Part shown: in pieces, positions 19,713-34,351 of the stretch
Position numbering within the stretch: the stretch's first letter is position 1
How the letters are laid out: each line of letters begins with the position of its first letter
From: Janibacter sp. A1S7
GTDB lineage: Bacteria > Actinomycetota > Actinomycetes > Actinomycetales > Dermatophilaceae
Direction: 5' to 3'
Length of the DNA: 64,000 nt
Assembly (NCBI RefSeq): GCF_037198315.1
Contig: NZ_CP144913.1
Location: 868,001-932,000 of the forward strand
Position numbers and translations under genes: made by a program
Notes under the pieces: model-generated
What the model was told of the DNA's origin: nothing
What the model saw: the letters and a program-made list of their open reading frames with translations, nothing else
The model's database searches: none

Positions 19713-19718
19713 TAGACT
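19713..19718 (+). promoter_or_regulatory. possible -10 of the thiolase promoter
   Basis: TAGACT matches TANNNT and lies about 63 bases before the thiolase ATG in the divergent mce-thiolase region. The gene also has a good ribosome site, GGAGG at 19769-19773. Confidence 0.3.
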
Positions 19719-19780
19719 TGGGGGCAGTACCCGCGGTGTCGCTCCGGTGCCGCGCACCCCACGAAGTTGGAGGCATCCAC

Positions 19781-20980
19781 ATGTCCGAGCGTCCCGTGTC
19801 CGTCATCGTCGCCGGGGCCCGCACCCCGATGGGCCGCATGAGCGGCTCCCTCAAGGGGTTCTCCGGCTCCGACCTCGGTGGCTTCGCCATCAAGGGGGCC
19901 CTGGAGAAGGCCGGCATCTCGGGCGAGCAGGTCGACTACGTGATCATGGGCCAGGTGCTGACCGCCGGCGAGGGCCAGATCCCCGCGCGTCAGGCCGCGA
20001 TCAAGGGTGGCATCCCGAAGAACGTGCCCGCGCTGACCGTCAACAAGGTCTGCCTCTCCGGCATGGACGCGATCGCGCTGGCCGCCCAGCTGGTCCGCGC
20101 CGGCGAGTTCGACGTCGTCGTCGCCGGTGGCCAGGAGTCGATGACCAACGCCCCGCACCTGCTGCCCAAGAGCCGTGAGGGCATCAAGTACGGCGACACC
20201 AAGCTCAAGGACTCGATGGCCTACGACGGCCTGCACGACATCATCACCGACCAGGCGATGGGCTCGCTGACCGAGGCCAGGAACGCCGAGAACTCCGAGT
20301 TCTCCCGCGAGGAGCAGGACGCCTTCGCCGCCGCGAGCCACCAGAAGGCCGCCAAGGCGTGGTCCGAGGGCAAGTTCGCCGACGAGGTCGTCGCCGTCGA
20401 GGTTCCGCAGCGCAAGGGTGACCCTGTCGTCTTCGACACCGACGAGGGCGTGCGCGCCGACACCACCGCCGAGTCCCTGGGCAAGTTGCGTCCGGCGTTC
20501 GCCAAGGACGGCACCATCACCGCCGGCTCCGCCTCGCAGATCTCCGACGGCGCCGCGGCGGTCGTCGTCATGAGCAAGGCCAAGGCGCAGGAGCTCGGTC
20601 TGGACTACCTCGCCGAGATCGGCGCCCACGGCGTCGTCGCCGGCCCGGACTCCACGCTGCAGGCCCAGCCGGCCAACGCGATCGAGGCCGCGCTGAAGAA
20701 GGACGGCATCTCGGTGGGTGACCTCGACGTCGTCGAGATCAACGAGGCCTTCGCCGCCGTCGGCCTCTCCTCGACCAAGCAGCTGGGCCTGGACCCGGAG
20801 AAGGTCAACCCCAACGGCGGAGCCATCGCGATGGGCCACCCGCTGGGCATGTCCGGCGCGCGCATCACGCTCGCGCTGGCGCATGAGCTCAAGCGTCGCG
20901 GTGGCGGCACGGGTGCGGCCTCCCTCTGCGGCGGTGGCGGTCAGGGCGACGCCCTGATCGTGCGCGTGCCGAACGCCTGA
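19781..20980 (+). CDS. acetyl-CoA C-acetyltransferase (thiolase)
   Basis: 399 residues, the typical thiolase length. The biosynthetic direction condenses two acetyl-CoA to acetoacetyl-CoA, the entry step to the C4 module here. The nucleophilic Cys lies in [11 protein letters not shown] near residue 90; the catalytic His in [17 protein letters not shown] (about 347-363), with the second Cys in [11 protein letters not shown] near the C-terminus. The EINEAFAAV motif is intact. ATG 19781 is preceded by GGAGG. The meaB start follows after 2 bases, so the two genes form an operon. Confidence 0.93.
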
Positions 20981-20982
20981 GT

Positions 20983-21945
20983 GTGATCCGTAGCGTCGAC
21001 GTCCCCGCCCTGGTCGAGCAGACCAGGGCGGGGACGCCGCGTGCCATCGGGCGGCTGATCTCGCTGGTCGACGACCAGCACCCAGCGCTGCGGGAGGCGA
21101 TGGCTGCTCTCGCGCCGCACACGGGTGGGGCACACGTGATCGGTCTGACCGGCTCGCCGGGTGTCGGCAAGTCGACGACGACCAATGCCCTGGTCGGGGT
21201 CTTCCGAGCGGCCGGCAAGAGCGTTGCCGTGCTCGCGGTGGACCCGTCGTCCCCCTTCTCCGGCGGGGCACTCCTCGGTGACCGCATCAGGATGAGCGAG
21301 GCGGCCACCGACCCGGGCGTCTACATCCGCTCGCTCGCCGCGCGCGGGCACCTCGGTGGCATCTCGCTCGCCACACCGCAGGCGATTCGCGTCCTCGACG
21401 CGGCCGGCTTCGACGTCGTCATCGTCGAGACGGTCGGCGTCGGCCAGTCCGAGGTCGCGGTCGCCGGCTCCGCCGACACGACGCTCGTCCTGCTCGCTCC
21501 CGGGATGGGCGACGGGATCCAGGCCGCCAAGGCCGGCATCCTCGAGATCGGGGACGTCTTCGTCGTCAACAAGGCCGACCGCGAGGGGGCCGACTCGACC
21601 GTCCGTGACCTGCGGCACATGATCAGGATGGGGGAGGGGAGCGCACCCGGCGGTTGGCGCCGCCCGGTCGTGCGCGCGTCCGCGGTCGACGGCACCGGTA
21701 TCGGCGACATCGCCGTGTCCGTCGGTGACCATCTCGACTGGCTGGCGTCCAGCGGTGAGCTGCGCCGTCGCCGCACTGCGCGTGCCCGCGACGAGGTCTC
21801 CGCTCTCGCCGTCGCCGAGCTGCGCTCGCGGATGGGGGACCTCGGGGCGGGCGGAACGCTCGATCAACTCGCCGCCGATGTCGTCGACGGCGGCAGGGAC
21901 CCCTTCGCCGCGGCTGACGTCCTGCTCGAGTCCGTCGCCGGCTGA
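20983..21945 (+). CDS. meaB: MeaB GTPase, B12-mutase chaperone
   Basis: 320 residues of the MeaB/ArgK G3E GTPase family, which gates adenosylcobalamin loading into, and removes damaged cofactor from, acyl-CoA mutases. Motifs: Walker A GSPGVGKSTTTNAL near residue 57, AVDPSSPFSGGALLGDRIRM, ETVGVGQSEVAV (switch/Walker B region) and the base-specificity motif NKAD. Start is GTG 20983, 2 bases after the thiolase stop, so it is in the same operon; the client is most likely MeaA. The gene ends 3 bases before the convergent LuxR-type regulator. Confidence 0.95.
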   Translation: MIRSVDVPALVEQTRAGTPRAIGRLISLVDDQHPALREAMAALAPHTGGAHVIGLTGSPGVGKSTTTNALVGVFRAAGKSVAVLAVDPSSPFSGGALLGDRIRMSEAATDPGVYIRSLAARGHLGGISLATPQAIRVLDAAGFDVVIVETVGVGQSEVAVAGSADTTLVLLAPGMGDGIQAAKAGILEIGDVFVVNKADREGADSTVRDLRHMIRMGEGSAPGGWRRPVVRASAVDGTGIGDIAVSVGDHLDWLASSGELRRRRTARARDEVSALAVAELRSRMGDLGAGGTLDQLAADVVDGGRDPFAAADVLLESVAG

Positions 21946-21948
21946 CCG

Positions 21949-24381
21949 TCAGGACACCAGGTGCAGGGTCCGTTGGAGGCGCTCTAGCAGCTCGCGGCGC
22001 GTCTGCGCCCCGCTGCGCTGCCGGATCCGGGCCATGTGGTGCTCGACCGTGCGCGGGGAGAGGTAGAGCTCCTCGCCCACTTCGCGGTAGGTCTTGCCGT
22101 CGAGCACGAGCCGGACGACCTCCACCTCCCGCTCCGAGAGCAGGATCGAGCCGGGCACGGATTCACCGGCGGGGGGCTCACTGCGGTCCTCGTCCGGGTC
22201 GCGCAGGGACCGGGCCAGCTCGCGAAGGGAGGCCGTCTGCCGTGGATCGTCGCACCGGGCGGCGGCGTGGGCCGCCAGCCGGGCGCCGTCCCAGGCCTGG
22301 CCGACCTGGGCCAGCCCGGTGACGGCTGCGCGGACCTCGGCTGCGTCGAAGTCACGGGCCAGCACGTGCATCCATGCCTTCCCGGCACGGGCCAGACGGG
22401 CGGCGAAGGGGTGGTGCTCCGCTGCGTGGAGCAGTGCGGTGGCGTGAGGCGCGATGGCAGAGGGCTGGTTGGCCAGGATGGCGGCCTGCACGCTGGACCA
22501 GTTCAGCGGCGTGCTCCACAGCGGCGGTGAACCGAGGTTCTCCAGGAGCTGGTGCGCTCGGTCGAGGTCGGCCGTCAGCGCCTCCGTCTGGCGCAAGCGG
22601 ACGGCAGCGATGTTCAGCTCGCCGAGCGCGAGGAGCGAGAAGAGGTCGGGTTCGACCCGGTCGAGGCACTGGGTCGCGTCCGTCCACGCCTGCACGGCCG
22701 CGGCCTCGTCGGTGGTGCGCCGGGCGATACCCGACCTGAGTCCGGCGAGGACGAGGCGATTGCGCAGCTGGCTGTCGTGCAGACCGGCGGCCGCCCGGTC
22801 GGCGTGGCTCCGCGCGCCCGACAGGTCCCCCTGCCACAGCGAGGCCCATCCCAGCAGCAGCTCACGCTGGATGATGTGCGGACGCAGCGATGGCCGCGCG
22901 CGCTCGGCCACGGCCCGGGCGGTCGTGGAGTCGCCCACGTGCAGGGCAGCCCACCCGGCGAGGAGGGAGACCGGGTAGGGACTCAGCGCGGAGGGTGCCG
23001 GGGGCAGCAGGTGGGCGGCTTTGACCAGCTGGCCGACGGCCTCTGCGGTGGCCCCGGTCAGGGACGTCTGCAGCCCGTGCCGGGCGGTCTCGGCGGCCAC
23101 CCTGCCCAACGTCGGTGCCCCCGCGGTGGGGGCGGTCGCCGCAACCGTGTCCGTCGACTCATCATCCTGCGATGGATCCCCCGCGGCCTCCCGGGTGGCG
23201 AGAAGATCGACGGCGGGGACGGTGCCGAGGGCACCACTCGCCCACAGCGCCAACGCACGCGCCTGGGATACCAGCCCACGCTCGACGTGCGCCACGATCG
23301 CCGTGGAGACGACGCGGTCGAGGTCGACGTCGTGGCCGGAGGCGAGCACGAGGTCGCAGATGTGGGCTGCAGCGGCCACGTCCCCGATGCGAAGCAGGGC
23401 TTCGGCCCGACGCGGCGCAAGGTCCGAGAGGGAGGCCCCGGATGCCTCCGAGCGGTCGTACCACGCGAGGGCATTCTCCGGTGCGGAGTGCAGCGCACTG
23501 TCCCCGAGATCGCCGGTGATGTCGGCCAGGCGCTCGCAGCGTGCCCCACCTGCGAACAGCTCCTCGATGACGGCGGCGTGCGGGGTGGGGTCGCTGATGC
23601 CCTCGACGACGGCGTGCCCGATGCGCATGATCCGGTGGACCGGCATGCCGCGACGCACCGTGTGCCGCACCAGCGGGAGCAGCTCGCCGTCCGGCCCGAG
23701 GAGGGCGTGCTGGTCGAGTTCCTCAACGACCCGGTCGCGGCGGTCGGTCTCGGCGAGGGAGGGCGCCAAGGGCGCCCTGTGCACCATGAAGCCGATCGCG
23801 AGCTCGTCCACGAGCGTGCGTGCCGTGGGACCCAGGGTCGCCATCTGGCGGTCGAGCGCGTGTTCCCACAGCCCGGGATCGAGCACCGATGGGGGCTCGG
23901 CGGGGGAGCGTCGCAAGGATGTGAAGTGCCGGATGAATGCCGGGTGCCCGCCGGTCGCCTCGGCCAGTGTCCGGACCAGCTCGCCCGTGGGTGCGACGTC
24001 GTGGCAGTGCTCGAGGTACTCGGCCACGTCCTGCTCCGACCACGGACGCAACCGCAGGGTCGAGCACGAGGCGAGGAGGTCGTGCGGGACCACCGGCGCG
24101 GCTGCGGTCCACGGCACCAGGACCAGGCGAGCGCCGCGGCCGGCGAGGTGGCGCACCCGCTCGTGCACGTCCTCCCCGGCGAGATCCTCACCCTCGAGCA
24201 CGAGGACGTCCTGTGTCTCGGCGGCGTCGGTCATGCGCGCTGCCAGCATCCGGGCGACCACAGGCTGCCCGTCGCCGGTCCGGCCCAGCACGACGGCGTG
24301 CGGGGCGGGGTCGTCGAGCACGGTGTCGATGTCGTCGATGACCGAGGGCGGGAGCCAGTCGCCGGCGTTGGCGCGGGTCAT
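21949..24381 (-). CDS. large LuxR-type transcriptional regulator with degenerate NTPase domain (IniR-like)
   Basis: 810 residues. The N-terminal part resembles a STAND/MalT-type NTPase, but the P-loop reads GRTGDGQP where GxxxxGK(S/T) is expected, so nucleotide binding may be lost. A long Ala/Leu-rich helical-repeat (TPR-like) middle follows (about 270-720). The last about 65 residues are a LuxR/NarL helix-turn-helix (LSEREVEVVRLVLDGKTYREV, LSPRTVEHHMARIR). It overlaps the upstream Hsp70-like gene by ATGA and so is made with it. By size, layout and position next to an iniBAC-like operon it recalls mycobacterial IniR (Rv0339c), reported as an activator of iniBAC; orthology is inferred. Its likely targets are the two promoters in the 26.3-26.65 kb region. 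Confidence 0.8.
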   Translation of the reverse strand: MTRANAGDWLPPSVIDDIDTVLDDPAPHAVVLGRTGDGQPVVARMLAARMTDAAETQDVLVLEGEDLAGEDVHERVRHLAGRGARLVLVPWTAAAPVVPHDLLASCSTLRLRPWSEQDVAEYLEHCHDVAPTGELVRTLAEATGGHPAFIRHFTSLRRSPAEPPSVLDPGLWEHALDRQMATLGPTARTLVDELAIGFMVHRAPLAPSLAETDRRDRVVEELDQHALLGPDGELLPLVRHTVRRGMPVHRIMRIGHAVVEGISDPTPHAAVIEELFAGGARCERLADITGDLGDSALHSAPENALAWYDRSEASGASLSDLAPRRAEALLRIGDVAAAAHICDLVLASGHDVDLDRVVSTAIVAHVERGLVSQARALALWASGALGTVPAVDLLATREAAGDPSQDDESTDTVAATAPTAGAPTLGRVAAETARHGLQTSLTGATAEAVGQLVKAAHLLPPAPSALSPYPVSLLAGWAALHVGDSTTARAVAERARPSLRPHIIQRELLLGWASLWQGDLSGARSHADRAAAGLHDSQLRNRLVLAGLRSGIARRTTDEAAAVQAWTDATQCLDRVEPDLFSLLALGELNIAAVRLRQTEALTADLDRAHQLLENLGSPPLWSTPLNWSSVQAAILANQPSAIAPHATALLHAAEHHPFAARLARAGKAWMHVLARDFDAAEVRAAVTGLAQVGQAWDGARLAAHAAARCDDPRQTASLRELARSLRDPDEDRSEPPAGESVPGSILLSEREVEVVRLVLDGKTYREVGEELYLSPRTVEHHMARIRQRSGAQTRRELLERLQRTLHLVS

Positions 24382-26342
24382 GACTGTCCGGGCGCCGCCG
24401 AGGTCGTCTGCTCGGACGTGGCTGGTGGTGCCGGCGTGGTGGTGGATGCGGAGCTCGTGACGCTCGGTTCGCTGCTCGGTGTGGTGCTGGTGCTCGGCTC
24501 CGGGGCCGGGGTCGGCGTCGGGGTCGGGGTCGGCGTCGGAGCGGGGGTGGTGCTCGGCCGTGGGGAGGAGGGCGTGGGCCCGGGCGCGCTCGTGGATGGT
24601 GACGACGTGCCGCCGGCCGGCTTGCCGGACGTGGAACTCGGGGCGTGGGATGACGTGGGCGTCCGCCCGGTGGACGAACTCGAGGGCTTCGAGGACGTGT
24701 TCGACGTCGTGCCCTTGCTCGACGAGCGCGGAGAGGCCTTGTCGGACCCGGTGTCGCCGGCAGCCGTGCTCTTGGTGGCCGTGTCCTTGTCCTTCTTCTT
24801 CTCGTCGCCGCCCTTCTTCTTCTTCCCGTTCTCGGACTCGTCGCGGTCATCGGGGTCCGTGCCCTTGTCGGACCCCTTCTTGTCCTTCGGGCCGTGGGTG
24901 GAGGTCGGCGAAGGGCCGGTCGTGTCGTCGCCGGTGCTGTCGTCGCGGCGATCGGCGCTCTCGCCGGCGCCATTGGTCGCAGCAGAGCTGCCGGCGTCAG
25001 CATCTGCCTCGTCCGAGTCACCCCACGGCAGGGCGGGGAGAATGGCAGCGTCGGCCAAGCTGTCCAGCACATCATCGGAGGTGGAGTCGGACGAGGACGA
25101 GTCCTGCGGCACGACGCCGTCGACGAGGGAGAGCAGGGTGGCCTCTCCGGCATCGGTCATCGACATCGCGACCGCTGCCACGGGGGCGGCGAGAGCGAGC
25201 GAGGCCGCGACCAGGACGGCAGTGCGTCGGCGGTGTCCCCGATGACCGACCGATGGCAGGGGTGCGATCGGTAGCAACTGTGTCTCCTGGGCGTCGTCCT
25301 CGTCCGCGGCCACGGGATCGGCGTCCACGGGCTCGGCGGCGAGGCCCGACTCCATCACGGCTGCACCTGCCTCGGCGTACCGCCGGAGGGCTTCACTGTC
25401 GGTGACGTGCGCGACGGACATGCCCAAGGCGCCGGACACGGCCTCGACGACCATCGGCAGGGAGGTGAGGGAGCCTGTGACAAGCACCGTGGAAGGACGG
25501 GCCCCGACCGGGTCGATGACGTCGTCCACCAGCTGGTCGACGACGTCGGTGACGGTACCGCCCGCCAGCAGCTCGAGATCTGCGCGGACGAGCCGGACGG
25601 GATCCCTGCCGGGCAGCTCCACCTCCGTCGCGGTCCGTCGGGCGAGATCCGCGCGTGCGCTTGTGCACGCGGCGCGGACGGCGACGGCGTCGAGCGTCTC
25701 CTGCGCCGGCGCCGGCGTCGACGGTGATCGATGGTCGATGAACTCAGCCAACGCGTCATCGATGTCGTTGCCGCCCCAGTCGGAGCAGCTCGTGCGATCC
25801 ACCTGCCAGCCGTCCTCCCCGTGGGTGAAGACGTCGGCCCGGAAGGACTCGTCCCCGGCTGTGAGCACGAGGACGGATCCGGTCAGCTCCTCGCGGGTGC
25901 CCGGATCGATGAGTCCGAGACCGGCATCGACCATGGTCACCGACTGGTCGGTGAGCTCGACGAGCGCGTCGCGGAGCGCGGCTCGGCGGTGAGCACGCCA
26001 CTCGTCCGGGACGACCAGGACGAGGTGCTCAGCAGGAGTATCGGCCACGGCTGCGGCCGCATCGGCGATGACGGCGGCCACGAGAGCCTCGGCCGGCCAG
26101 GACCGAGATCCCACCCGGATCGGGACGGGGTCACCCACCCGAGCGAGGAGGCCGTCGACCAGCGGGCCGTGCCCTCCCGGGGCGCTGACCGTGACCGGGG
26201 TGCCGGATTCGTCAACGACCGCCAGCGGTCTGCGGAGCATGTGGCTGGCTGGTTGTGTGGTTCCGTCGGAGGAGTGCGTCATGTGAATGACGCCCACCTC
26301 CGCCGCACCGATGGTCACGACGACCTGATCCCCCGACAACAC
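24378..26342 (-). CDS. membrane-anchored Hsp70-like protein with Ser/Thr/Pro-rich tail
   Basis: 654 residues from GTG 26342 (GAGGGGG ribosome site just upstream). Residues 1 to about 320 follow the Hsp70/actin-fold ATPase pattern. GGNDIDDAL near 190 corresponds to the Hsp70 GG(E/N)DFD motif, VRADLELL to TRAEFE, and VLVTGSLTSLP near 283 to the VGGSTRIP motif. The first phosphate loop (DLGT) reads TIGAAEVG and the second (DLGGGT) reads VLTAGDES, so ATPase activity is doubtful. There is no substrate-binding domain. A membrane helix at about 374-396 is followed by about 255 residues of acidic and Ser/Thr/Pro/Lys low complexity ending in PT repeats, probably outside the cell. Genes of this type next to iniB-like genes are seen in other actinobacteria. 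Role unknown; a sensor or anchor for the IniB/dynamin system is inferred. Confidence 0.7.
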   Translation of the reverse strand: MLSGDQVVVTIGAAEVGVIHMTHSSDGTTQPASHMLRRPLAVVDESGTPVTVSAPGGHGPLVDGLLARVGDPVPIRVGSRSWPAEALVAAVIADAAAAVADTPAEHLVLVVPDEWRAHRRAALRDALVELTDQSVTMVDAGLGLIDPGTREELTGSVLVLTAGDESFRADVFTHGEDGWQVDRTSCSDWGGNDIDDALAEFIDHRSPSTPAPAQETLDAVAVRAACTSARADLARRTATEVELPGRDPVRLVRADLELLAGGTVTDVVDQLVDDVIDPVGARPSTVLVTGSLTSLPMVVEAVSGALGMSVAHVTDSEALRRYAEAGAAVMESGLAAEPVDADPVAADEDDAQETQLLPIAPLPSVGHRGHRRRTAVLVAASLALAAPVAAVAMSMTDAGEATLLSLVDGVVPQDSSSSDSTSDDVLDSLADAAILPALPWGDSDEADADAGSSAATNGAGESADRRDDSTGDDTTGPSPTSTHGPKDKKGSDKGTDPDDRDESENGKKKKGGDEKKKDKDTATKSTAAGDTGSDKASPRSSSKGTTSNTSSKPSSSSTGRTPTSSHAPSSTSGKPAGGTSSPSTSAPGPTPSSPRPSTTPAPTPTPTPTPTPAPEPSTSTTPSSEPSVTSSASTTTPAPPATSEQTTSAAPGQS

Positions 26343-26418
26343 ATTTCCCCCTCGTTCAACCGGTGTGCCAGATCGGGGCCCCCCACGACTGGCACGTATC
26401 CACAGCATAGGCACGATT

Positions 26419-26431
26419 CCGGTGTTACCGG
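26419..26431. promoter_or_regulatory. inverted repeat in the divergent hsp70-like/iniB promoter region
   Basis: CCGGT-GTT-ACCGG is a perfect 5-bp inverted repeat 77-89 bases upstream of the Hsp70-like start and beside the 11-bp tandem repeats. It is a candidate operator for the leftward promoter; the binding protein is unknown. Confidence 0.35.
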
Positions 26432-26452
26432 AGAGTAATCCTTGCTTTTCCC

Positions 26453-26507
26453 TGACTACCTAATGACTACCTAATGATCCCCTACTGAAAGTACCCAACC
26501 CCCTAAG
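26453..26507 (+). repeat. phased 11-bp direct repeats, likely activator binding sites
   Basis: Two exact copies of TGACTACCTAA (26453-26463 and 26464-26474) are followed without gap by TGATCCCCTAC (26475-26485), TGAAAGTACCC (26486-26496) and AACCCCCTAAG (26497-26507). The period of 11 bases is one helical turn, so a protein binding each unit would line up on one DNA face, as for MalT or SARP-type activators. The LuxR-type regulator encoded in the divergent operon is the obvious candidate ligand; binding is inferred. Confidence 0.6.
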
Positions 26508-26523
26508 GCCCCGTCGCGGAGAT

Positions 26524-26551
26524 CCCCCTTCGCCGCCGGACCCGAAGGGGG
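26524..26551 (+). terminator. hairpin in the putative leader of the iniB-like gene
   Basis: CCCCCTTCG (26524-26532) and CGAAGGGGG (26543-26551) form a perfect 9-bp stem with a 10-nt loop, about 100 bases before the iniB-like ATG; GGAGA/TCTCC outside can extend it. It could insulate the two promoters or act as an attenuator in the rightward leader. No T-run follows. Confidence 0.45.
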
Positions 26552-26650
26552 TCCGGACCGGGTCTCCCCGACACCACCGTCTCCCTAGGTTGATCAGTGG
26601 CGTCACCAGGGCGCCGAGCACGGAATCAACTCAGGGGGAAGGAACCCGTC

Positions 26651-28084
26651 ATGGCCGTCTCGACCAGCGATCTGCTCGACTTCATTCTCAACCTGCTCCG
26701 CGACCCGCAGGCCGCAGCAGACTTCAACGACGACCCGCAGGCCGCTCTCGAGAGCGCCGGCCTCGGTGACCTCTCGTGCGATGACGTCGACGCGGTCATG
26801 CCCGTCGTCATCGACTACGCACCGGTGAACACGACCACCACCACCAACGCCTCCAGCTTCGACCGTCAGTTCGACACCGGTGCGCACGTCAGCGCCCCGG
26901 GCGGTGACTCCTGGACCCAGGCCAACTCGGACAACGACGGTGGGGGCTGGCACGGCGGTGGCGGTCACGGCGGTGGCGGTCACGATGGTGGCGGTCACGG
27001 CGGCGGCGGTCACGGCGGCGGCGGTCACGATGGTGGCGGTCACCACGGCGGCGGCGGTCACGGCGGTGGCGGTCACCACGGCGGCGGCGGCCATGACATG
27101 GACGACCACGGTCACGCCGTGCAGCAGCTGCACCACGTGGTCAACAACTACAGCTACACCAGCACCGTCGACGACCGCGACACCACCCTCGACCAGTCCG
27201 TGAACCAGAACATCTGGGCCAACGGCGACGTCAGCCAGGTGTTCGACAACGACGCGATCATCGCCTCCGGTGACGGTTCCGTCGCGGCCGGCGACGACGC
27301 CATGATCGACAACTCGGTCAACGACTCGAACAACGACAACTCGGACAACTCCATCAACGGGTCGTACAACGACATGTCCGACAACTCGGACAACTCGGTC
27401 AACGACTCGTACAACTCGGACTCGTACAACGACAACTCCGACAACTCGGACAACTCCGACAACTCCGACAACTCGGACAACTCGGACAACTCGGACAACT
27501 CGGACAACTCGATCAACGTCAATGACTCGTTCAACGACAACTCGGACAACTCCGACAACTCCGACAACTCGGACAACTCGGACAACTCCGACAACTCCAC
27601 CAACGACTCGTACAACGACAACGACGGCATCGACAACGACGGTGGTGACAACGACGGCCTGGACATCGACAACAGCGGTAACAGCGACGACAACTCCACC
27701 AACGACTCGTACAACGACAGCTCCGACAACTCCGTGTCGGACGATGACGGCATCGACAACGACGGTGGCGACAACGACGGCCTGGACATCGACAACAGCG
27801 GTAACACCGACGACAACTCGGACAACTCCGTCAACGACTCGCTGAACGACAACTTCAGCGACAACTTCAGCGACAACTTCAGCGACAACGAGGACAACTC
27901 GGACAACTCGGACAACTCGGTGAACGACTCGTTGAACGACAACTTCAGCGACAACTTCAGCGACAACGAGGACAACTCGGACAACTCGGACAACTCGGTG
28001 AACGAATCGTTGAACGACAACTTCAGCGACAACTTCAGCGACAACTTCAGCGACAACGACAACGACGTCGTCGACGTCGGCTGA
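26651..28084 (+). CDS. iniB: IniB-like repeat protein
   Basis: 477 residues, close to the about 480 of mycobacterial IniB. Residues 1 to about 57 form an IniB-type N-terminal domain (LLDFILNLLRDPQAAADF). Residues about 97-148 are a Gly/His repeat (GGGGH units, often with Asp). Residues about 157-215 are less repetitive (NQNIWANGDVSQVFDNDA, IIASGDGSVAAGD). Residues about 216 to the end are Asp/Asn/Ser repeats (DNS, NDSYND, DNFSDN). Neither signal peptide nor membrane helix is seen. The composition is very acidic, almost free of Lys and Arg after residue 180, and predicted disordered or beta-solenoid-like; the His-rich part may bind metal. IniB of mycobacteria is induced by cell-wall inhibitors. 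It precedes the two dynamin-like genes. ATG 26651 has GGGGGAAGGA upstream. Confidence 0.75.
   Translation: MAVSTSDLLDFILNLLRDPQAAADFNDDPQAALESAGLGDLSCDDVDAVMPVVIDYAPVNTTTTTNASSFDRQFDTGAHVSAPGGDSWTQANSDNDGGGWHGGGGHGGGGHDGGGHGGGGHGGGGHDGGGHHGGGGHGGGGHHGGGGHDMDDHGHAVQQLHHVVNNYSYTSTVDDRDTTLDQSVNQNIWANGDVSQVFDNDAIIASGDGSVAAGDDAMIDNSVNDSNNDNSDNSINGSYNDMSDNSDNSVNDSYNSDSYNDNSDNSDNSDNSDNSDNSDNSDNSDNSINVNDSFNDNSDNSDNSDNSDNSDNSDNSTNDSYNDNDGIDNDGGDNDGLDIDNSGNSDDNSTNDSYNDSSDNSVSDDDGIDNDGGDNDGLDIDNSGNTDDNSDNSVNDSLNDNFSDNFSDNFSDNEDNSDNSDNSVNDSLNDNFSDNFSDNEDNSDNSDNSVNESLNDNFSDNFSDNFSDNDNDVVDVG
26940..27106 (+). repeat. GGCGGTCAC-type tandem repeat encoding Gly/His units
   Basis: About ten imperfect copies of a 12-15 base unit (GGCGGTGGCGGTCAC and variants with GAT or CAC inserted) encode GGGGH/GGGHD repeats inside the iniB-like gene. 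Confidence 0.85.
27300..28070 (+). repeat. tandem repeats encoding Asp-Asn-Ser units
   Basis: GACAACTCG/GACAACTCC 9-mers occur in long runs (for example 27429-27510 and 27536-27600). A compound block around GACGGCATCGACAACGACGG appears twice (27625-27690 and 27747-27810). A 12-mer GACAACTTCAGC is tandem in three blocks from about 27845 to 28055. Near-identical third positions show recent expansion by unequal exchange or slippage. Confidence 0.85.
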
Positions 28085-28113
28085 CCCGACTGCTCGTCCC
28101 CGACGAGCGGACA

Positions 28114-28153
28114 GCCCGGACCGATCCGACCATCTGGTCGGGTCGGTCCGGGC
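28114..28153 (+). terminator. strong hairpin between the iniB-like and iniA-like genes
   Basis: Arms 28114-28131 and 28136-28153 pair over 18 bases with a single G-U wobble and a 4-nt ATCT loop. A smaller GCTCGTC/GACGAGC hairpin lies just before. It can reduce read-through so that the repeat protein is made in excess over the GTPases, or stabilise the iniB-like mRNA 3' end. Confidence 0.65.
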
Positions 28154-28247
28154 CATTTCGGGAGCTCCGCAGGTGTGGGACAGTGGAGTCAGTCGGTGCC
28201 GACGCCGGCGAACACGTCATGGGGATGGATGCGCTGGGGGAGGGCGG

Positions 28248-30080
28248 ATGGAACCTGGATCGATGATCGAGCGGGCGAGCGAGCTGGTCGCCGCGGTTGA
28301 TCGGGAGGACCTGCAACGCAGGCTGGTCGGTGCACGCGAGCGATTCGACGACCCGACCACACGGGTCCTCGTCGTGGGCGAGTTCAAGCAGGGCAAAAGC
28401 GCTCTGGTCAATGCCTTGGTCAATGCCCCGGTGTGCCAGGTGGGTGACGATGTCGCGACTGCTGTTCCCACCGTGGTGTCCTGGTCACAGTCACCGACGG
28501 CAACTCTCGTCGAGGCCGACGAGCAGCTCGATGACGAGGGTGACGTCCCGCTGCGGCCGACCCGTCGCGAGGTCCCGCTGGAGCGGTTCGACGAGGAGAT
28601 CCGACTGGCCACCCGCACCGAGCGACGTCAACGACTCCTCCACGCAGAGGCGGGGCTGCCGCGCGAGATCCTGACCGGGGGACTGACCCTCGTCGACACC
28701 CCGGGCGTCGGCGGTCTGCGCACCAGCCATGCTGCGGCCACCGTCGGCGCGCTGCCCTCGGCCGACGCGGTGCTCTTCGTCTCCGACGCCTCCGCCGAGC
28801 TGTCGGCGGCAGAACTGCGGTTCCTGCGCGACGTCGTCGACGCCTGCCCACACGTCACCTGCGTGATGACGAAGACCGACATCGCCCCCGAGTGGCAGCG
28901 ACTGGCGGACATCAACCGCGGCCATCTGCGGGACGCCGGCATAGCCGCCACCGTGGTACCCGTCTCCTCCGTCCTGCGGGACGCGGCCACGCGCTCACAG
29001 GACGTCGCGCTGAACCAGGAGTCCGGTTTCCCCGAGCTGGTGAGGCTGCTGCGGCAGGGCATCCTCGCCCGTACGAGGGACCTTGCCCGACAGACACTGA
29101 CCCAGGATGTGCGGCTGGTCAGTCGGCACCTGAGGCTCGCGGTGGAGTCCGAGCTGGACGCCCTGCAGAACCCGGAGGAGCTGCCCGCCCGCATCGCCGA
29201 CCTGGAACGCGCCAAGGCGCAGGCGGACTCCCTGCGCAATCGTGGCTCCCGCTGGCAGGTCACTCTCGGGGACGGGATGGCCGATCTCATGTCCGACCTG
29301 GAGCACGACCTGAAGGACCGTCTGCGGGGGGTCGTCCATGACGCCGAGGACAGCATCGACAGCGGAGACCCGGGCAAGGACTGGGAGGCCTTCTCGCAGT
29401 GGCTGGATGAGCAGGTGGGCGACGCCCTCGCCGAGACCTTCCGGTGGACCGAGGACAACACCCAGTGGATCACCACTCAGGTGGCGCAGCACTTCGCCGA
29501 CGACGCGGCGTCGTCCGTGCCGCGCATGGCGGTCGGGAGCACGTCGGGACTCACCGATCGGGCCAGGCCCCTCGTCGAGATCGACCCGGGGGTGCTCAAC
29601 GTCGGGCAGAAGGTCCTCATCGGGATGAGGGGTTCCTACGGAGGAGTGCTGATGTTCGGGCTGCTCACCGGGCTCGCGGGCTTCGCGCTGGTCAACCCGA
29701 TCTCCATCAGCGCGGGCCTCCTGCTCGGTACCAAGGCCTACTCCGACGATCGGACCAACCGGCTCAAGCGTCGGCAGAACGACGCGAAGATGGCCGTGCG
29801 CCGCTACATCGACGACGTGACCTTCCAGGTGACCAAACAGCTGAAGGACCGGCTGCGGCTGGTGCACCGCACGCTGCGTGACCACTTCACCGAGGTGGCC
29901 GGGGACCTGCAGCGCTCGTCCGTCGACGCGCTGCGGCAGGCCAACGCGGCGGCCAAGGCCTCGGATGCGGAGCGGGCCGAACGCATCCGGTTCCTGAAGA
30001 AGCACCGGAGCAGGGTCGTCGAGCTCGAGGAGGCGCTCGGCACCGCCCGGCCGGAGGCGCAGCGGGCGGTCGCATCATGA
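28248..30080 (+). CDS. iniA: IniA-like dynamin-family GTPase with membrane hairpin
   Basis: 610 residues (mycobacterial IniA is about 640). Bacterial dynamin-like proteins bind and reshape membranes on GTP hydrolysis. Motifs: P-loop GEFKQGKSALVNAL near residues 44-57, DTPGVGGL near 149, TKTD near 208. A helical middle domain follows, and a hydrophobic hairpin at about 461-497 (VLMFGLLTGLAGFALVNP) probably inserts into the membrane; a charged C-terminal helical region returns to the stalk. ATG 28248 (GGGGAGGG upstream) is preferred; ATG 28263 is possible. The stop overlaps the start of the next GTPase (ATGA), pointing to a stoichiometric pair that may act as a heteromer. Confidence 0.85.
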   Translation: MEPGSMIERASELVAAVDREDLQRRLVGARERFDDPTTRVLVVGEFKQGKSALVNALVNAPVCQVGDDVATAVPTVVSWSQSPTATLVEADEQLDDEGDVPLRPTRREVPLERFDEEIRLATRTERRQRLLHAEAGLPREILTGGLTLVDTPGVGGLRTSHAAATVGALPSADAVLFVSDASAELSAAELRFLRDVVDACPHVTCVMTKTDIAPEWQRLADINRGHLRDAGIAATVVPVSSVLRDAATRSQDVALNQESGFPELVRLLRQGILARTRDLARQTLTQDVRLVSRHLRLAVESELDALQNPEELPARIADLERAKAQADSLRNRGSRWQVTLGDGMADLMSDLEHDLKDRLRGVVHDAEDSIDSGDPGKDWEAFSQWLDEQVGDALAETFRWTEDNTQWITTQVAQHFADDAASSVPRMAVGSTSGLTDRARPLVEIDPGVLNVGQKVLIGMRGSYGGVLMFGLLTGLAGFALVNPISISAGLLLGTKAYSDDRTNRLKRRQNDAKMAVRRYIDDVTFQVTKQLKDRLRLVHRTLRDHFTEVAGDLQRSSVDALRQANAAAKASDAERAERIRFLKKHRSRVVELEEALGTARPEAQRAVAS

Positions 30081-31594
30081 CGTGGGGCGCCCAGGGCTCG
30101 CAGGACCGGGCACGACGGCTGCTGGTGGAGGCGATCGCGGCCTACGAGGGGTGCGAAGCGGACCAGCAGGTCCTGCGAGCTCACCTGACGCGGTTGGACG
30201 AACCCCTGCGGATCGCTCTCGCAGGAAAGGTCAAGGCCGGCAAGTCCACCCTGATCAACGCCCTGATCGGCGAAGAGGTCGCACCCACCGACGCAGGTGA
30301 GTGCACCATGGTCACGACGTGGTATCGCCACGGCCCGGCACCGCGATCCCGTCTGGTCCGGGCCGACGGGGAGTGCCTGGACCTACCGCTCACCCGACGT
30401 CACGGCCGTCTGCAGCACACGCTCCTGGGGCTGACTCCCCAGGAGGTCGCCCGCATCGAGGTCGAGTGGCCGTCACCGATGCTGGAGCAGGTCACGCTCG
30501 TCGACACCCCGGGGATCGGCTCGCTGACCGCCGAGGCCTCCCGGCACACCACGGACCTGCTCTCCGCGGAGGCGACGGGGCGCCCCGTGGACGCCGTCAT
30601 CTACCTCTTCAAGAGCCGCCACGCAGATGACCTCACCATGCTGCAGGAGTTGCGTGGCGGCGCCGTCACCGACGCCGCCCACGCCGTTGCGACCACCGTC
30701 GGAGTGCTCTCGCGTGCGGATGAGATCGGAGGTGGGCGCCTCGACAGCCTCATCTCCGCCAAGGACGTCGCGACGAGGCACGCCGAGGATCCCCGGATGC
30801 GGGCCCTGTGCTCGGACGTCCTGCCCGTGGCGGGGCTTCTTGCGCAGGGTGGACGCACTCTGCGGCAGGACGACTTCGAGATCCTCGCCGCGCTCGCGCG
30901 GATGGAGCGTGCGGACCGGGAGGCGGTGCTCGTCTCCGTGGGGCGGTTCCAGGACGCGGACGCGGTCGGTGGCACGCTGCAGTCCCGCACCGCGCTCGTC
31001 GCTCGGCTCGGGCTCTTCGGGGTCCGACTGGGCACGGTGCTCGTCCGCCAGGGCATCAGCCGGCCGGGCGAGCTGGCCGACGAGCTCGCCCGGCGCAGTG
31101 GGTTGGGGATGGTGGAGCGCGTCATCTCCACCCAGTTCGCGCCGCGTGCCGCAGCACTGACCAGCCTGGGCGCCGTCTCGGCACTGGAGCATCTGCTGCG
31201 TGTGCACCCCGTGCCGGAGGCGGAATCACTGCTCACCCAGTGCGAGGCGATCAGGGTGGGGGAGTACGCACCCCAGGAGATGCGTCTGCTCGCGGACGTG
31301 CGTCAGGCTGCGGTGCCGGGGCTGGACCAACGTCGTGCTGCGGCCGCGCTCCGGTTGCTCGGCGACCAGGGCGTGCAGCCCTGGCGGCGGCTGGGCCTGC
31401 GGGAGACGGCGAGCGCCGACGACGTCGCGCGGGCTGCCCGCGAGTCCTTGGCCGAGTGGCGGGCGCTCGCGGGCGACTGCCTGGCCACCCAGTCCACCCG
31501 GCGCGCGGCCAGGGTGCTGGCCCGCGTGTGCGAGGAACTCCTGGACTGCCTACCCGTCCTCAGTCCTTCCAGTGGGACCCCGGCAGCCACATGA
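30077..31594 (+). CDS. iniC: IniC-like dynamin-family GTPase
   Basis: 505 residues (mycobacterial IniC is about 490). P-loop AGKVKAGKSTLINALIGEE near residues 50-67, DTPGIGSL near 142. The fourth motif reads LSRADE in place of (T/N)KxD, a weakened base-recognition loop. No hydrophobic paddle or membrane helix is visible, unlike the partner encoded just upstream. It may therefore depend on that partner for membrane contact. The C-terminal part is helical with many Arg/Ala. ATGA overlap with the previous gene shows coupled translation. The 3' end overlaps the convergent membrane-protein gene by 35 bases. Confidence 0.83.
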   Translation: MTWGAQGSQDRARRLLVEAIAAYEGCEADQQVLRAHLTRLDEPLRIALAGKVKAGKSTLINALIGEEVAPTDAGECTMVTTWYRHGPAPRSRLVRADGECLDLPLTRRHGRLQHTLLGLTPQEVARIEVEWPSPMLEQVTLVDTPGIGSLTAEASRHTTDLLSAEATGRPVDAVIYLFKSRHADDLTMLQELRGGAVTDAAHAVATTVGVLSRADEIGGGRLDSLISAKDVATRHAEDPRMRALCSDVLPVAGLLAQGGRTLRQDDFEILAALARMERADREAVLVSVGRFQDADAVGGTLQSRTALVARLGLFGVRLGTVLVRQGISRPGELADELARRSGLGMVERVISTQFAPRAAALTSLGAVSALEHLLRVHPVPEAESLLTQCEAIRVGEYAPQEMRLLADVRQAAVPGLDQRRAAAALRLLGDQGVQPWRRLGLRETASADDVARAARESLAEWRALAGDCLATQSTRRAARVLARVCEELLDCLPVLSPSSGTPAAT

Positions 31595-32093
31595 GGACGG
31601 CGCCGACGGCGCCGAGCACGGCCTGCAGGACGAGCAGGCCCGTGGTGACCCAGCCCTCCCACTGCCAGGCGGTCAGGATCGGCACCGCGATGGGTGTGAC
31701 GATGACCTGGAGGAGTGCCAGCACGGTCAACGAGATGCGGGTGGGCAGCCCACCGTGGGCGAGTCGTATCGCCAGGAGGATCGTGAGCGTGAGCAGCACG
31801 ACGAGCACCGCGAAGGTGGCGATGATCAGGAGCCGGACCGCCTGTTCCCCGTCGGCCTCGCCGACGTCGGGGCCCAGGACTGCGGCGAGCTCATCGTGGC
31901 GCTCGTCGCGCCACAGGGCCGCCGTCACCAGGGCGAGGACGCCACTGAGGTAGCCGGCCTTCCACACGGAAAGGGCGCGAGTCAGGCCGGGCGGTCGCCG
32001 CTGGGCATCGATGGGTGAGGAGTCCCGGATCCGCGTCGGCGGTCGCTGTGGTCGGTCCTCGAAGTCGTCATCCGTCCCGCTCCCCCTGGTCAT
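31560..32093 (-). CDS. small multi-pass membrane protein, unknown function
   Basis: 177 residues. A polar N-terminus (about 1-40, Arg/Pro/Asp-rich) is followed by membrane segments at about 45-60, 86-108, 118-136 and 145-170. No known motif. The tail-to-tail 35-base overlap with the IniC-like gene is real because both reading frames have good support. It could be part of the envelope-stress neighbourhood, but there is no direct evidence. Confidence 0.7.
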   Translation of the reverse strand: MTRGSGTDDDFEDRPQRPPTRIRDSSPIDAQRRPPGLTRALSVWKAGYLSGVLALVTAALWRDERHDELAAVLGPDVGEADGEQAVRLLIIATFAVLVVLLTLTILLAIRLAHGGLPTRISLTVLALLQVIVTPIAVPILTAWQWEGWVTTGLLVLQAVLGAVGAVLMWLPGSHWKD

Positions 32094-32188
32094 GTCAGCA
32101 GGTTATGCGCCCCGAGCCCATCGTGGAAGGGCGCTGGCCGGCCAAATGGCGCCACCGGTCCTCGTGACCGGGCACCTCGAGGGCCATC

Positions 32189-32194
32189 TACGCT
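32189..32194 (+). promoter_or_regulatory. possible -10 of the kinase gene
   Basis: TACGCT lies 9 bases before the kinase ATG, giving a leaderless or nearly leaderless mRNA; no ribosome site is visible in the gap. Confidence 0.35.
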
Positions 32195-32203
32195 GGAACT
32201 GCC

Positions 32204-33286
32204 ATGACTGACCACACCCCGCCCGCCGTGATCGGTGGTCGCTACGAGACCGTGCGACCGATCGGACGCGGCGGCATGGGAGTCGTGTGGCTCGCGCGGG
32301 ACGCCGTGCTCGGCCGCGCGGTCGCCGCCAAGCAGATCGGGGACTTCCCCGGGGAGAGCGCGGGCGAGACCCACCGCGCGATGCGTGAGGCCCGTGCCGC
32401 GGCAGCGCTCAACCATCCCAATGTCGTCGCCGTCTACGACGTCGTCGAGCACGAGGGGAGTCCGTGGCTGGTGATGGAGTACGTCGCCGGGCCGACGCTC
32501 GCCACGGCCATCCGGCAGCGTGGTCCGATGACGGCGAAGGGGGCGGCGGACCTGGGCGCGCAGCTCGCCGGGGCTCTCGACTCCGCTCACCGGGCGGGGA
32601 TCGTGCACCGGGACATCAAGCCCGCCAACGTCCTCATCGGCGGTGGTCTGCCCAAGCTCGGCGATTTCGGCATCGCCCGTGCCGGCACCGATGAGCAGAC
32701 GACCGGGAGCGGCCAGGTCACCGGCACCCCGAACTACATGGCCCCCGAGGTCGCGGTCGGCAGGCCCCACGGCGAGGCCGCCGACGTGTGGGCGCTGGGT
32801 GCGACGATCTACTTCGCGGTGGAGGGTCAGGACGCCCACGAGAACCAGGCCACCGCGCTCGCCACCCTGGAGGGCGTCGCCTCCCGTGCGCCGGGGCGCC
32901 CCGAGCGCGCCGGCCCACTCGAGCCCGTCCTCGCCGACATGCTCGCCCGCGACCCCGCTCGTCGCCCGACGATGCGGCAGGCCCGGCGTCGCCTGGAGAC
33001 CATCGCTGCTGGTGGAACCGACGTGCCCGCAACCGCGCGGACGAGCGCTGGTGCGCCACCCACGGGCTCGACCACCGCTCACCGTCCCGCCGCGTCCGGC
33101 GCAGCACCGGCCGCCGGGAGGGCGAAGGGGGGCCGCGCCCGCCTGCTGTGGTTGCTGCTCGGCATCATCGCGGTGGCGGTGATCATCGGGGCGATCGTTC
33201 TCGCCACCCGGGGCGGTGTGGTCGGGGATCCCTCGGGCGCAGCGCCGACGCAGCAGGAGCAGGCCCCGACACCGTCCAGCGACTGA
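32204..33286 (+). CDS. PknB-family Ser/Thr protein kinase with one membrane helix
   Basis: 360 residues. The kinase domain (about 12-268) is complete: glycine loop IGRGGMGVVW, catalytic Lys in AAKQI near 44, catalytic loop HRDIKPAN near 135-142, DFG at about 154, activation segment ending TGTPNYMAPE, and the ADVWALGATIYFAVEG motif. A Ala/Pro/Thr-rich linker leads to a membrane helix at about 313-335 and only about 25 outside residues, so there is no PASTA or other sensor domain. It is encoded beside the Ini-like cluster and could phosphorylate components of it, but no direct link is visible. Confidence 0.92.
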   Translation: MTDHTPPAVIGGRYETVRPIGRGGMGVVWLARDAVLGRAVAAKQIGDFPGESAGETHRAMREARAAAALNHPNVVAVYDVVEHEGSPWLVMEYVAGPTLATAIRQRGPMTAKGAADLGAQLAGALDSAHRAGIVHRDIKPANVLIGGGLPKLGDFGIARAGTDEQTTGSGQVTGTPNYMAPEVAVGRPHGEAADVWALGATIYFAVEGQDAHENQATALATLEGVASRAPGRPERAGPLEPVLADMLARDPARRPTMRQARRRLETIAAGGTDVPATARTSAGAPPTGSTTAHRPAASGAAPAAGRAKGGRARLLWLLLGIIAVAVIIGAIVLATRGGVVGDPSGAAPTQQEQAPTPSSD

Positions 33287-33309
33287 CGACCACGACACCA
33301 GGAGGACCC

Positions 33310-33609
33310 ATGTTGCTCGCCTTCTCCATCGCCCCCGCCGGCCCCGGCGACGACGATTCGTACGCCCCGGCGGTCGCGGCCGCCCTGCAGGTGGTGCGCG
33401 GCAGTGGCCTGCCCCACGACCTCGGCTCGATGTTCACCACCATCGAGGGGGAGTGGGACGAGGTCATGCCCGTGATCAAGCAGTGCGTCGACGCCATGGG
33501 GCCCTACGGGGACCGCGTCTCACTGGTGATGAAGGCTGACATCCGGGCCGGACGCACCGGCCAGCTCACCGCGAAGGTCGACCGGGTCGAGGGCCTCCTG
33601 CGGGAGTGA
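33310..33609 (+). CDS. MTH1187/YkoF-type thiamine-binding protein
   Basis: 99 residues, a single ferredoxin-like domain of the MTH1187 (formerly DUF77) family, some members of which bind thiamine or its precursors. The N-terminal LLAFSIAPAG and the GSMFTTIEGEWDEVMPVIKQC stretch fit the family. GGAGGA lies 4 bases before ATG 33310. It follows the kinase after 23 bases and may share its mRNA. No riboswitch or thiamine gene is nearby, so the physiological ligand is open. Confidence 0.75.
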   Translation: MLLAFSIAPAGPGDDDSYAPAVAAALQVVRGSGLPHDLGSMFTTIEGEWDEVMPVIKQCVDAMGPYGDRVSLVMKADIRAGRTGQLTAKVDRVEGLLRE

Positions 33610-33709
33610 CCGCGTCGTGACCAATTTGTGACCTCGATGGAACTTTGTCATCGTGGATCGTCCGCCGCGCGTGGCGGGCACTCCTGACCCTCCACACGAA
33701 AGCAGCGAC

Positions 33710-34351
33710 ATGAGTGCGCTCATCCTGCGCATCGCCGGGACGATCGTGGCCCTGATCGGCCTCGTCGGCGTCCTCGTCGGCGGTTGGTTCCTCAGCGCCC
33801 TGGGGACCTCCGGTACCGCGACCTTCACCGGTCAGCCGGACCAACGCGTCGTCGTCCTCGCTCCCGACGTCCTCAACCGGCTCGACTCCCCGATCGAGGT
33901 CACCGCGACCGGCACGGGCGACGTCTGGGCCGGGACCGCGCGCCCGTCCGACGTCGAGGCCCTCCTGGGTGACGGCCCCCGGACCGTGGCCACCGGCGTC
34001 GACGTCTCCGAGTGGGCCCTGACCTCCACCGACGTCGGTGAGGGGGATGCGATGGACGTGCGCGGCCTCGACATCTGGCAGTCCTCCACGAACGAGGAGG
34101 GGACGGTCACCACGACGATCGAGCAGGACGACGCCCCGCAGACGCTCGTCATCACCGCCCCCGAGGGCGAGGAGGTCCAGCAGGTCGAGTACCGGGTCAG
34201 CGACGACCGGTGGAGCACGATCGCGATCGTCGTTCTCGTCGTCGGGCTCGTCCTGCTGCTCCTGGGCATCGCCCTGGTCCTCGGCCCCCGCCGGCTGCGC
34301 GCCCGTCGTGACCGACCGGCCGCCCGCACCCGCGAGGAGGTCGGAGCATGA
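33710..34351 (+). CDS. membrane protein with large extracytoplasmic domain, unknown function
   Basis: 213 residues: membrane helix at about 7-29, an extracytoplasmic domain rich in beta strands and acidic residues (about 35-165), a second helix at about 167-190, and a basic cytoplasmic tail (RRLRARRDRPAARTREE). No enzyme motif. The stop overlaps the start of the lipoprotein gene (ATGA, 34348-34351), suggesting the two products act together at the outer face of the membrane. Confidence 0.7.
   Translation: MSALILRIAGTIVALIGLVGVLVGGWFLSALGTSGTATFTGQPDQRVVVLAPDVLNRLDSPIEVTATGTGDVWAGTARPSDVEALLGDGPRTVATGVDVSEWALTSTDVGEGDAMDVRGLDIWQSSTNEEGTVTTTIEQDDAPQTLVITAPEGEEVQQVEYRVSDDRWSTIAIVVLVVGLVLLLLGIALVLGPRRLRARRDRPAARTREEVGA

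Follow-up and report, generated by a model that had tools for sequence, protein, structure and literature searches.

The closest described counterpart of the locus studied here is the mycobacterial iniBAC operon with its regulator IniR; induction by ethambutol and isoniazid is described as strongest at the iniBAC promoter (PMC5760070). The portions of that paper available to us report that IniR overexpression by itself induces, that ChIP puts IniR upstream of iniBAC, and that in M. marinum only iniR insertions, among 25 mutants, were unresponsive to drugs. Since trehalose induction persists in a mutant of the trehalose importer, its authors assign the sensing system to the periplasm, and no protein is named for it in those portions. 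A dnaK-like gene beside iniR was noted in M. smegmatis in 2017, the legend to Figure 2 speaking of insertions, and the M. tuberculosis and M. bovis loci are described with no Hsp70-like gene mentioned in the available text (PMC5760070). Publications naming both IniA and Hsp70 yielded, in their accessible parts, unconnected mentions and references only.

The window analysed in this study is a stretch of 64,000 nucleotides from the genome of Janibacter sp. A1S7, and its five-gene locus is an IniR–IniBAC envelope-stress system of known kind from a member of the Micrococcales. The list of open reading frames bears out the five genes, their positions and sizes and both four-base overlaps given in a preliminary description of this DNA, and profile and PDB matches support the identities proposed there for IniB, IniA, IniC and an IniR-type regulator sharing a divergent upstream region. 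On the forward strand, iniB (26651..28084; ORF 26597-28084, likely ATG at 26651) encodes an IniB N-terminal domain at about 26672-26815 (IniB_NTERM, NF038175, 70.4 bits for a cut-off of 40), followed by Gly/His repeats (26937-27087) and Asp/Asn/Ser repeats (27307-28066). It is followed by iniA (28248..30080, ATG at 28248), encoding a dynamin-like GTPase of 610 residues with an intact P-loop, and by iniC (30077..31594), which overlaps iniA at 30077-30080 and encodes a second dynamin-like GTPase, of 505 residues. Both GTPases contain Dynamin_N; IniA matches the solved IniA structure 6j72 (E 4e-135, 455 bits in a PDB sequence search) and is 44-52% identical to the IniA of 80 named loci. The reverse strand carries the regulator gene (21949..24381) and the Hsp70-like gene (24378..26345), overlapping at 24378-24381. 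The frame of the latter is open to 26414 (678 aa), where reading by eye led us to prefer a GTG start at 26345, preceded by GAGGGGGA. Beyond iniR, the window encodes MeaB, a thiolase, a glyoxalase-family protein and a zinc-type dehydrogenase. We considered a methylmalonyl-CoA link, with MeaB here and iniBAC being linked to MutAB in the available text of PMC5760070, and set it aside as coincidence, MeaB being found at only two Janibacter loci among those compared.

The 810-residue regulator matches the IniR model NF038181 with an E-value of 7e-88 and 296 bits, below the curated cut-off of 750, so we name it IniR-type and argue its orthology from linkage and operator. It comprises a degenerate P-loop region, a long helical TPR-like middle and a C-terminal LuxR-type HTH (GerE, 748-798, 41.8 bits). 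The AF2 model is a confident helical array (pLDDT 85.8), whose first PDB match is the STAND-TPR protein 6mfv, at E 3e-5 but with a TM-score of only about 0.2. At the Walker A place the protein reads GRTGDGQP, with no GK[ST]; the P-loop is intact in Mycobacterium loci, and the domain is missing from many Micrococcaceae ORFs. Janibacter shares with Mycobacterium the IniB N-terminal domain, the IniA–IniC dynamin pair, the divergent IniR-type regulator, the common upstream region and one box consensus (PMC5760070, in the parts available; IniA structure, PMC6715688), but its window is devoid of an iniB* gene, its IniR P-loop is broken and its Hsp70-like protein is more decayed.

For this last protein, no Pfam (including PF00012) or NCBIfam match was found up to E 0.1, and sequence comparison with the PDB gave noise-level matches only, including an Hsp70 (E 0.69). 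The AlphaFold model is confident (mean pLDDT 84.8, pTM 0.82) and matches DnaK/Hsp70 nucleotide-binding domains (NBDs) at E ~1e-19 by Foldseek, so that the label given in the preliminary description is correct at the level of the fold. The NBD (25341..26345) is followed by a predicted membrane helix after RGHRRR (25164..25220, hydropathy 2.31) and a low-complexity tail of 261 residues (24381..25163), 70% of which are P, S, T, G, A, Q or N. The fold is common to this protein and the DnaK/Hsp70 chaperones, which differ from it in having a substrate-binding domain where it has the helix and tail, and in their catalytic residues. By the positive-inside rule the helix is predicted to be oriented N-in/C-out, and the tail is probably extracytoplasmic. 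Measured against the DnaK encoded in this genome, the catalytic positions are replaced in the window protein (D8 to T, K70 to L, D194 to T, D201 to R), and E171 falls in an alignment gap. The ATPase residues are kept in many lineages, mostly gone in Mycobacterium and replaced in Janibacter. A quick tree of 88 Hsp70 sequences, from which rows at least 80% alike, fragments and low scores had been removed, requires four changes at the catalytic Asp, three of them forced by starred branches; given the great length and unsure placement of the Janibacter branch, we claim no number of independent losses. We also rejected a trade of ATPase function, in which loss of the IniR P-loop would go with an intact Hsp70, because all four combinations occur: D8 with P-loop 23 times, D8 without P-loop 40, P-loop without D8 24 and neither 15, the P-loop counts being approximate since some ORFs are cut and the pattern misses forms such as AxxGxGKT.

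The Hsp70-like gene is a regular, overlooked companion of IniR–IniBAC and is not special to the Janibacter cluster. It had been put forward as absent from the mycobacterial operon, which does not stand: it was found near iniA in 134/134 evaluable Mycobacterium loci, as well as in 35/35 loci of a class-wide sample and 70/70 evaluable named loci. The M. smegmatis dnaK-like gene likewise adjoins iniR, but where it was taken as a one-species insertion in the available text of PMC5760070, the gene appears here as a regular constituent of such loci throughout the class. Searching genome contigs with the single Hsp70-like sequence as query gave no matches. The co-occurrence check proposed earlier was run, and the complete five-gene set is present in 32 of the 35 loci sampled across the class and in 67 of the 80 named ones. 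IniB matches below the cut-off in three genomes (G081, G127, G168) were left out before counting. Ten of the 13 incomplete named loci run into a contig end; in L102 a single open frame spans Hsp70 and IniR, and no IniB was detected in L120 and L175. We dropped such apparent fusions (L102, L143) as proof of partnership: the L102 junction resembles a frame slip, and IniR fused behind the tail would sit outside the cell. In 87 of 103 loci the Hsp70-like gene adjoins iniR on the same strand, the intergenic distance being -10 to +30 bases in 72, and the pair occurs in three orientations relative to iniBAC; in the other 16 it is not directly before iniR, some of these having broken or run-together frames. 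IniR matches were found in 38 of 394 class genomes, and IniA in all 38, on one contig in 36, with only 2 and 3 candidates scored per genome. Of the earlier expectation that both reverse-strand genes keep to ini genes, the part concerning IniR held, whereas Hsp70-like relatives also occur elsewhere.

A conserved candidate operator, A[A/T]CCCCTAAYG, precedes iniB. In the window, candidate IniR boxes lie on the forward strand at 26479..26487 (CCCCTACTG, 13.1 bits) and 26500..26508 (CCCCTAAGG, 16.3 bits), next to a direct repeat of 2.3 copies of TGACTACCTAA (26453..26477, forward strand, TRF) in which positions 26457 and 26468 weakly resemble the box (4.9 and 3.8 bits with the position weight matrix). 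The double-box pattern to which the pair belongs occurs once in the Janibacter genome, and its reversed control 16 times. A matrix trained on 50 upstream regions from outside the Mycobacteriales gave hits in 50/50 fresh upstream regions of Mycobacterium iniB and in 16 of 1000 random windows. Boxes were found upstream of IniB in 133/147 cases and of IniA, IniC and true dnaK in 0/119, 0/117 and 0/12, the 12 true dnaK genes having been set aside before the counts. Near-identical upstream regions had been removed as well (141 to 108). Box pairs were present, at the threshold used, in 69 of 109 loci having IniR and IniA and in none of 19 dynamin loci without IniR. The boxes are conserved at the right place to be IniR sites, and IniR may bind them.

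In E. coli, MalK gates MalT. Following PMC5760070, in its available text, MalT/MalK combines a STAND-type LuxR activator having a TPR-like domain with repeated boxes and a membrane partner, an arrangement that IniR, its candidate boxes and the Hsp70-like protein may resemble; MalK is the ATPase of an ABC transporter, whereas in Janibacter the proposed partner has an Hsp70 fold and a single membrane helix. By analogy, IniR would bind the tandem boxes and turn on iniB-iniA-iniC, IniA and IniC would form a paired membrane-remodelling dynamin with IniB as their partner, and the Hsp70-like protein, its actin-fold domain in the cytoplasm and its long tail toward the wall, would bind IniR and keep it at the membrane until an envelope change, perhaps sensed by the tail, released or activated it. 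We consider control of IniR from the membrane by the Hsp70-like protein the best mechanism, although as a full explanation it falls just short of being probable, and that the protein acts together with the dynamins is almost as likely. It is favored by the coupling to iniR across three orientations, the constant presence of IniA with IniR, the NBD-helix-tail layout, the specificity of the candidate boxes for iniB upstreams, and the reported IniR overexpression, ChIP and periplasmic sensing (PMC5760070, in part). Against it stand the 16 loci in which Hsp70 is not directly before iniR, the box pairs in only 69 of 109 loci, and the M. tuberculosis and M. bovis loci as described. The need for iniR alone among the M. 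marinum mutants implies in addition that Hsp70 is not a required activator in that species, barring replacement by paralogues or a role as a brake. More tentative is the stronger proposal that this protein is the missing transmembrane sensor, its NBD having become, in Mycobacteriales, Janibacter and some Propionibacteriales, a pseudo-ATPase gating a STAND regulator.

It could also be that the Hsp70-like protein has no part in sensing and serves IniB, IniA and IniC at the membrane, in assembly, anchoring or disassembly of a dynamin scaffold, an explanation that we regard as a serious contender while thinking it rather improbable. An Hsp70 with a membrane helix stands beside IniA–IniC without IniR in L184 and L185, and Hsp70-model matches above 100 bits were obtained in 7 of the 19 IniR-less dynamin loci, which are a part of the class-genome IniA matches without IniR. 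In the Mycobacterium loci L074, L088, L090 and L096 and, mirrored, L094, an Hsp70 gene of like orientation lies behind iniC, and several Mycobacterium have a second copy at this end; these IniR-less and iniC-end copies point to the effector side. In Pseudonocardia and Lentzea the gene is divergent from iniB and apart from iniR, and boxes precede the distal copies in L077, L079, L084 and L087. Yet the coupling is mostly to iniR rather than to iniBAC, the two genes moving together, and collinear hsp70-iniR promoters mostly have no boxes: among Hsp70 genes not arranged divergently to iniB, 9 of 75 have forward boxes in front, and in 31 fresh Mycobacterium loci none of the 36 rows scanned, true DnaK included, has one. 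As a rule, then, Hsp70 would not rise with the effectors.

Association by history, with a general actinobacterial family of wall-linked Hsp70 NBDs having its own job and being kept close to ini genes by a shared service to the envelope, appears unlikely. Close relatives do lie away from IniA in genomes of one family (f27; e.g. G054, G265, G322), and 191 of 198 Mycobacterium genomes have an Hsp70-like match at E 1e-30 or better, compared with 141 having IniA, but the presence of the gene at every evaluable ini locus, through several rearrangements, and its near-zero gaps to iniR argue otherwise. That the locus is an undescribed stress system merely resembling iniBAC, as the preliminary description had it, is very improbable, for although the IniR model score is below its cut-off and Micrococcales, to our knowledge, are not expected to have mycolic acids, the five parts and the operator are as in Mycobacterium, the operator is predicted across the divide, and IniA is 44-52% identical to that of the named loci.

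What is new here is the Hsp70-like gene as a regular companion of IniR–IniBAC, the lineage pattern of its ATPase residues and the conserved candidate iniB operator, the last allowing the IniR regulon to be tested directly. With its gene immediately ahead of iniR, the membrane-anchored protein is a candidate for the carrier of the envelope signal and, if it is indeed the sensor, would explain why the signal seems to be perceived outside the cytoplasmic membrane despite IniR being a DNA-binding protein. Occurrence of the system in genera that, as far as we know, have no mycolic acids suggests that this response predates the mycomembrane, and trehalose mycolates need not have been its original signal.

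All five open reading frames and both four-base overlaps lie in the window where the preliminary description had placed them (ORF listing), and the cluster, put forward there as an undescribed envelope stress system, is a member of a known one. The IniB N-terminal domain is recognised in its IniB (70.4 bits versus a cut-off of 40), with Gly/His and Asp/Asn/Ser repeats following, its IniA matches the solved IniA structure over residues 6-589 (E 4e-135), and its IniC is a second dynamin with 32% identity to IniA across 154 columns. GTPase P-loops are retained in 118 of 119 IniA and 116 of 117 IniC rows from the fetched loci; the one IniA exception is a fragment of a split gene. In two Mycobacterium genomes, G320 (locus L091) and G474 (L231), iniA is split in two frames. 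Residues 107-803 of the window's regulator align to the IniR model with 296 bits, under the equivalog cut-off of 750, and the AlphaFold model of the regulator (pLDDT 85.8, pTM 0.72) consists of a small alpha/beta N-terminal end, a long helical array and an HTH, the first PDB match being a STAND protein with TPRs (E 3e-5, low TM-score). Mycobacterium IniR has an intact P-loop, Janibacter IniR has lost it, and in many Micrococcaceae ORFs the domain is missing entirely.

Across a class sample of 394 Actinomycetes genomes, IniB_NTERM scored above cut-off in 37 (any match, 40), and the IniR profile made here matched 38. IniA was found in 69, including all 38 with IniR; because the candidates scored per genome were few (17 for IniB, 2 for IniR, 3 for IniA), lone IniR copies could have escaped detection. 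IniR and IniA share a contig in 36 of the 38, and contigs end in genomes G123 and G134. Among 41 stretches fetched around IniB matches, 35 contain IniA, and every one of these has an Hsp70-like gene, true DnaK excluded. The grouping of five genes proposed from the window held in 32 of these 35 loci, the other three being truncated by stretch or contig ends. For the named loci (the best 80 of at least 547, ranked by likeness to the window IniA), the same count gave an Hsp70-like gene in 69, plus locus L102 in a run-together frame; in the remaining ten the contig stops before the expected place, which by reading of the loci makes 70 of 70 evaluable. Hsp70-like protein and IniR share a single open frame in both L102 and L143, probably through an indel or deletion. 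Strong IniR matches are patchy in Janibacter, by loss or transfer (2 of the 13 genomes G000-G012).

The preliminary description also held that the Hsp70-like component is absent from the mycobacterial operon. IniA is present in 141 of 198 Mycobacterium genomes, and among the best 150 Hsp70 matches listed, an Hsp70-like match falls within 12 kb of IniA in at least 101 of the 141. All 31 further loci fetched contain a non-DnaK Hsp70-like gene (two truncated by a contig end), as do those of G098 and G320. In total, contrary to that claim, the gene lies near iniA in 134 of 134 evaluable Mycobacterium loci; in the seven other genomes the Hsp70 match is on a different contig. The M. tuberculosis ini locus is not known to carry an Hsp70-like gene, and the iniBAC/IniR paper is silent on one there. 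That paper, PMC5760070, mentions a dnaK-like gene beside iniR in M. smegmatis, and insertions are marked in the genome of this species according to the excerpted legend of its Figure 2; no other paper linking iniBAC to an Hsp70 was found among open-licence PMC papers, the few that contain both terms having only unconnected mentions and references. Members of the Hsp70-like family also occur away from ini loci.

The Hsp70-like protein of the window, whose closest relative is from Janibacter cremeus (66% identity), matched no Pfam or NCBIfam model and was not picked up by a PF00012 search across the 3.36 Mb host genome. AlphaFold, given an alignment with 51 relatives, returned a confident domain of ~335 residues, which Foldseek matched to DnaK/Hsp70 nucleotide-binding domains (best 50 matches listed: E 1e-19 to 3e-17, query TM 0.60-0.69, 14-18% identity). 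After it come RGHRRR, a single hydrophobic helix and a 261-residue low-complexity tail, with no substrate-binding domain. The same layout recurs at other loci, where 92 of 134 rows reach a hydropathy of at least 1.8, the 134 including 12 true DnaK and several fragments, and some rows, mainly from Arthrobacter kin, falling just below 1.8. Catalytic positions D8/K70/E171/D194/D201 were read against the DnaK of the same genome, with groups assigned by hand. DKEDD is found in 32 of 35 rows from Micrococcaceae, Georgenia and a few others, 12 of 18 from Microbacteriaceae, 7 of 7 from Pseudonocardiales and 5 of 7 from family f22. Propionibacteriales retain D8 in 1 of 3 rows, and Rhodococcus plus Williamsia retain D8 in 1, K70 in none and D194 in all of 14. 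Mycobacterium has S V D D S/N/T in 27 of 28 rows (the remaining row starts late), and both Janibacter rows have substitutions at four of the positions, with no aligned residue at the fifth.

Of the 103 loci holding Hsp70, IniR and IniA, 87 have Hsp70 directly before iniR in the same orientation, and in 72 of these 87 the two genes are separated by -10 to +30 bases. This pair is collinear before iniBAC in 36 loci (mainly Micrococcaceae), divergent from it in 35 (Janibacter, Mycobacteriales, some others) and faces it from the iniC end in 16 (mainly Microbacteriaceae and Propionibacteriales). The arrangement differs in Pseudonocardia, Lentzea and family f22, where Hsp70 is divergent from iniB and iniR lies beyond iniC. 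Several Mycobacterium have a second Hsp70-like copy, behind iniC or behind iniR, and slow-grower-like Mycobacterium loci with a long iniB have the gene only behind iniC, facing it. In Rhodococcus, Williamsia, Nocardia and some Mycobacterium, true dnaK is located no more than several kb from iniC (L023, L072, L124, L125, L136, L143, L160, L165, L167, L168, L174, L176; L204, L226-L230). Beyond iniR, window positions 17592-21945 encode a zinc-type dehydrogenase, a glyoxalase-family protein, a thiolase and MeaB, the last present only in the two Janibacter loci among those fetched; excerpts of PMC5760070 link iniBAC to methylmalonyl-CoA mutase in M. marinum. Behind iniC, at 31560-36337, lie genes for a membrane protein, a Ser/Thr kinase and a TPR protein, with two more ORFs before the last; the full row has a counterpart in just one locus, the other Janibacter one (L097), with single weaker matches elsewhere.

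Of 108 dereplicated iniB upstream regions, 76 contain the motif CCCCTAA, versus 18 of 2146 random windows from the same loci. The matrix for this candidate IniR operator has the consensus A[A/T]CCCCTAAYG and finds at least two boxes in 64 of the 108 upstreams, the median box position being 166 bases upstream of the IniB domain. A box is found in front of IniB in 133 of 147 cases, IniA in 0/119, IniC in 0/117, iniR behind hsp70 in 0/90 and true dnaK in 0/12; where Hsp70 and iniB diverge, the box region is common to both in 41 of 48 cases, and of the other Hsp70 genes 9 of 75 are preceded by a forward box. When a matrix built from 50 non-Mycobacteriales upstreams was applied to newly fetched Mycobacterium loci, unseen data for it, the box was found in 50 of 50 IniB upstreams versus 16 of 1000 random windows (same loci, promoters themselves included), and a forward box before 0 of 36 Hsp70 rows. 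Among loci that have both IniR and IniA, 69 of 109 carry a box pair; the 19 fetched dynamin loci that lack IniR carry none, nor does L183, where IniR is low-scoring. In the window the matrix places candidate boxes at 26479 and 26500; the pair pattern is unique to that site in the host genome (reversed control, 16 times), and single boxes with one mismatch show no enrichment over the whole window (7 found versus 12.8 expected). Box pairs also stand ~150 bases before 5 of 5 unlinked Mycobacterium IniB genes outside the training set, each a second IniB-type gene remote from iniBAC (L064, L076, L078, L081, L085), which on this upstream sequence are predicted to be members of the IniR regulon. Literature searches for A[A/T]CCCCTAAYG found no report of it, and the iniBAC promoter site for HpoR, a palindrome, is distinct from the candidate CCCCTAA operator.

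Excerpts of PMC5760070 report, for the M. marinum and M. tuberculosis proteins, that IniR overexpression is enough for induction and that IniR is located on the iniBAC promoter. Since trehalose induces even in a trehalose importer mutant, the authors assign the sensing step to the periplasm. The Hsp70-like protein, membrane-anchored and encoded together with IniR, is a natural candidate for connecting that step to the regulator. Nearly as good is the explanation that the protein serves the dynamins instead: L184 (5446-11769) and L185 (871-8716) combine IniA-IniC with a membrane-anchored Hsp70 with intact motifs, a small protein lying between, and neither IniR nor boxes were found in these two loci. 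IniA cuts membranes (excerpts of PMC6715688), and vesicle formation in a deletion was restored only with the whole operon, according to excerpts of a review citing a preprint (PMC9204639). Loss of the catalytic residues is compatible with a binding or scaffold role, whether the Hsp70-like protein serves IniR or the dynamins. What the known system gains is a regular companion that had been overlooked, the Hsp70-like protein, together with the decay series of its ATPase and a candidate operator.
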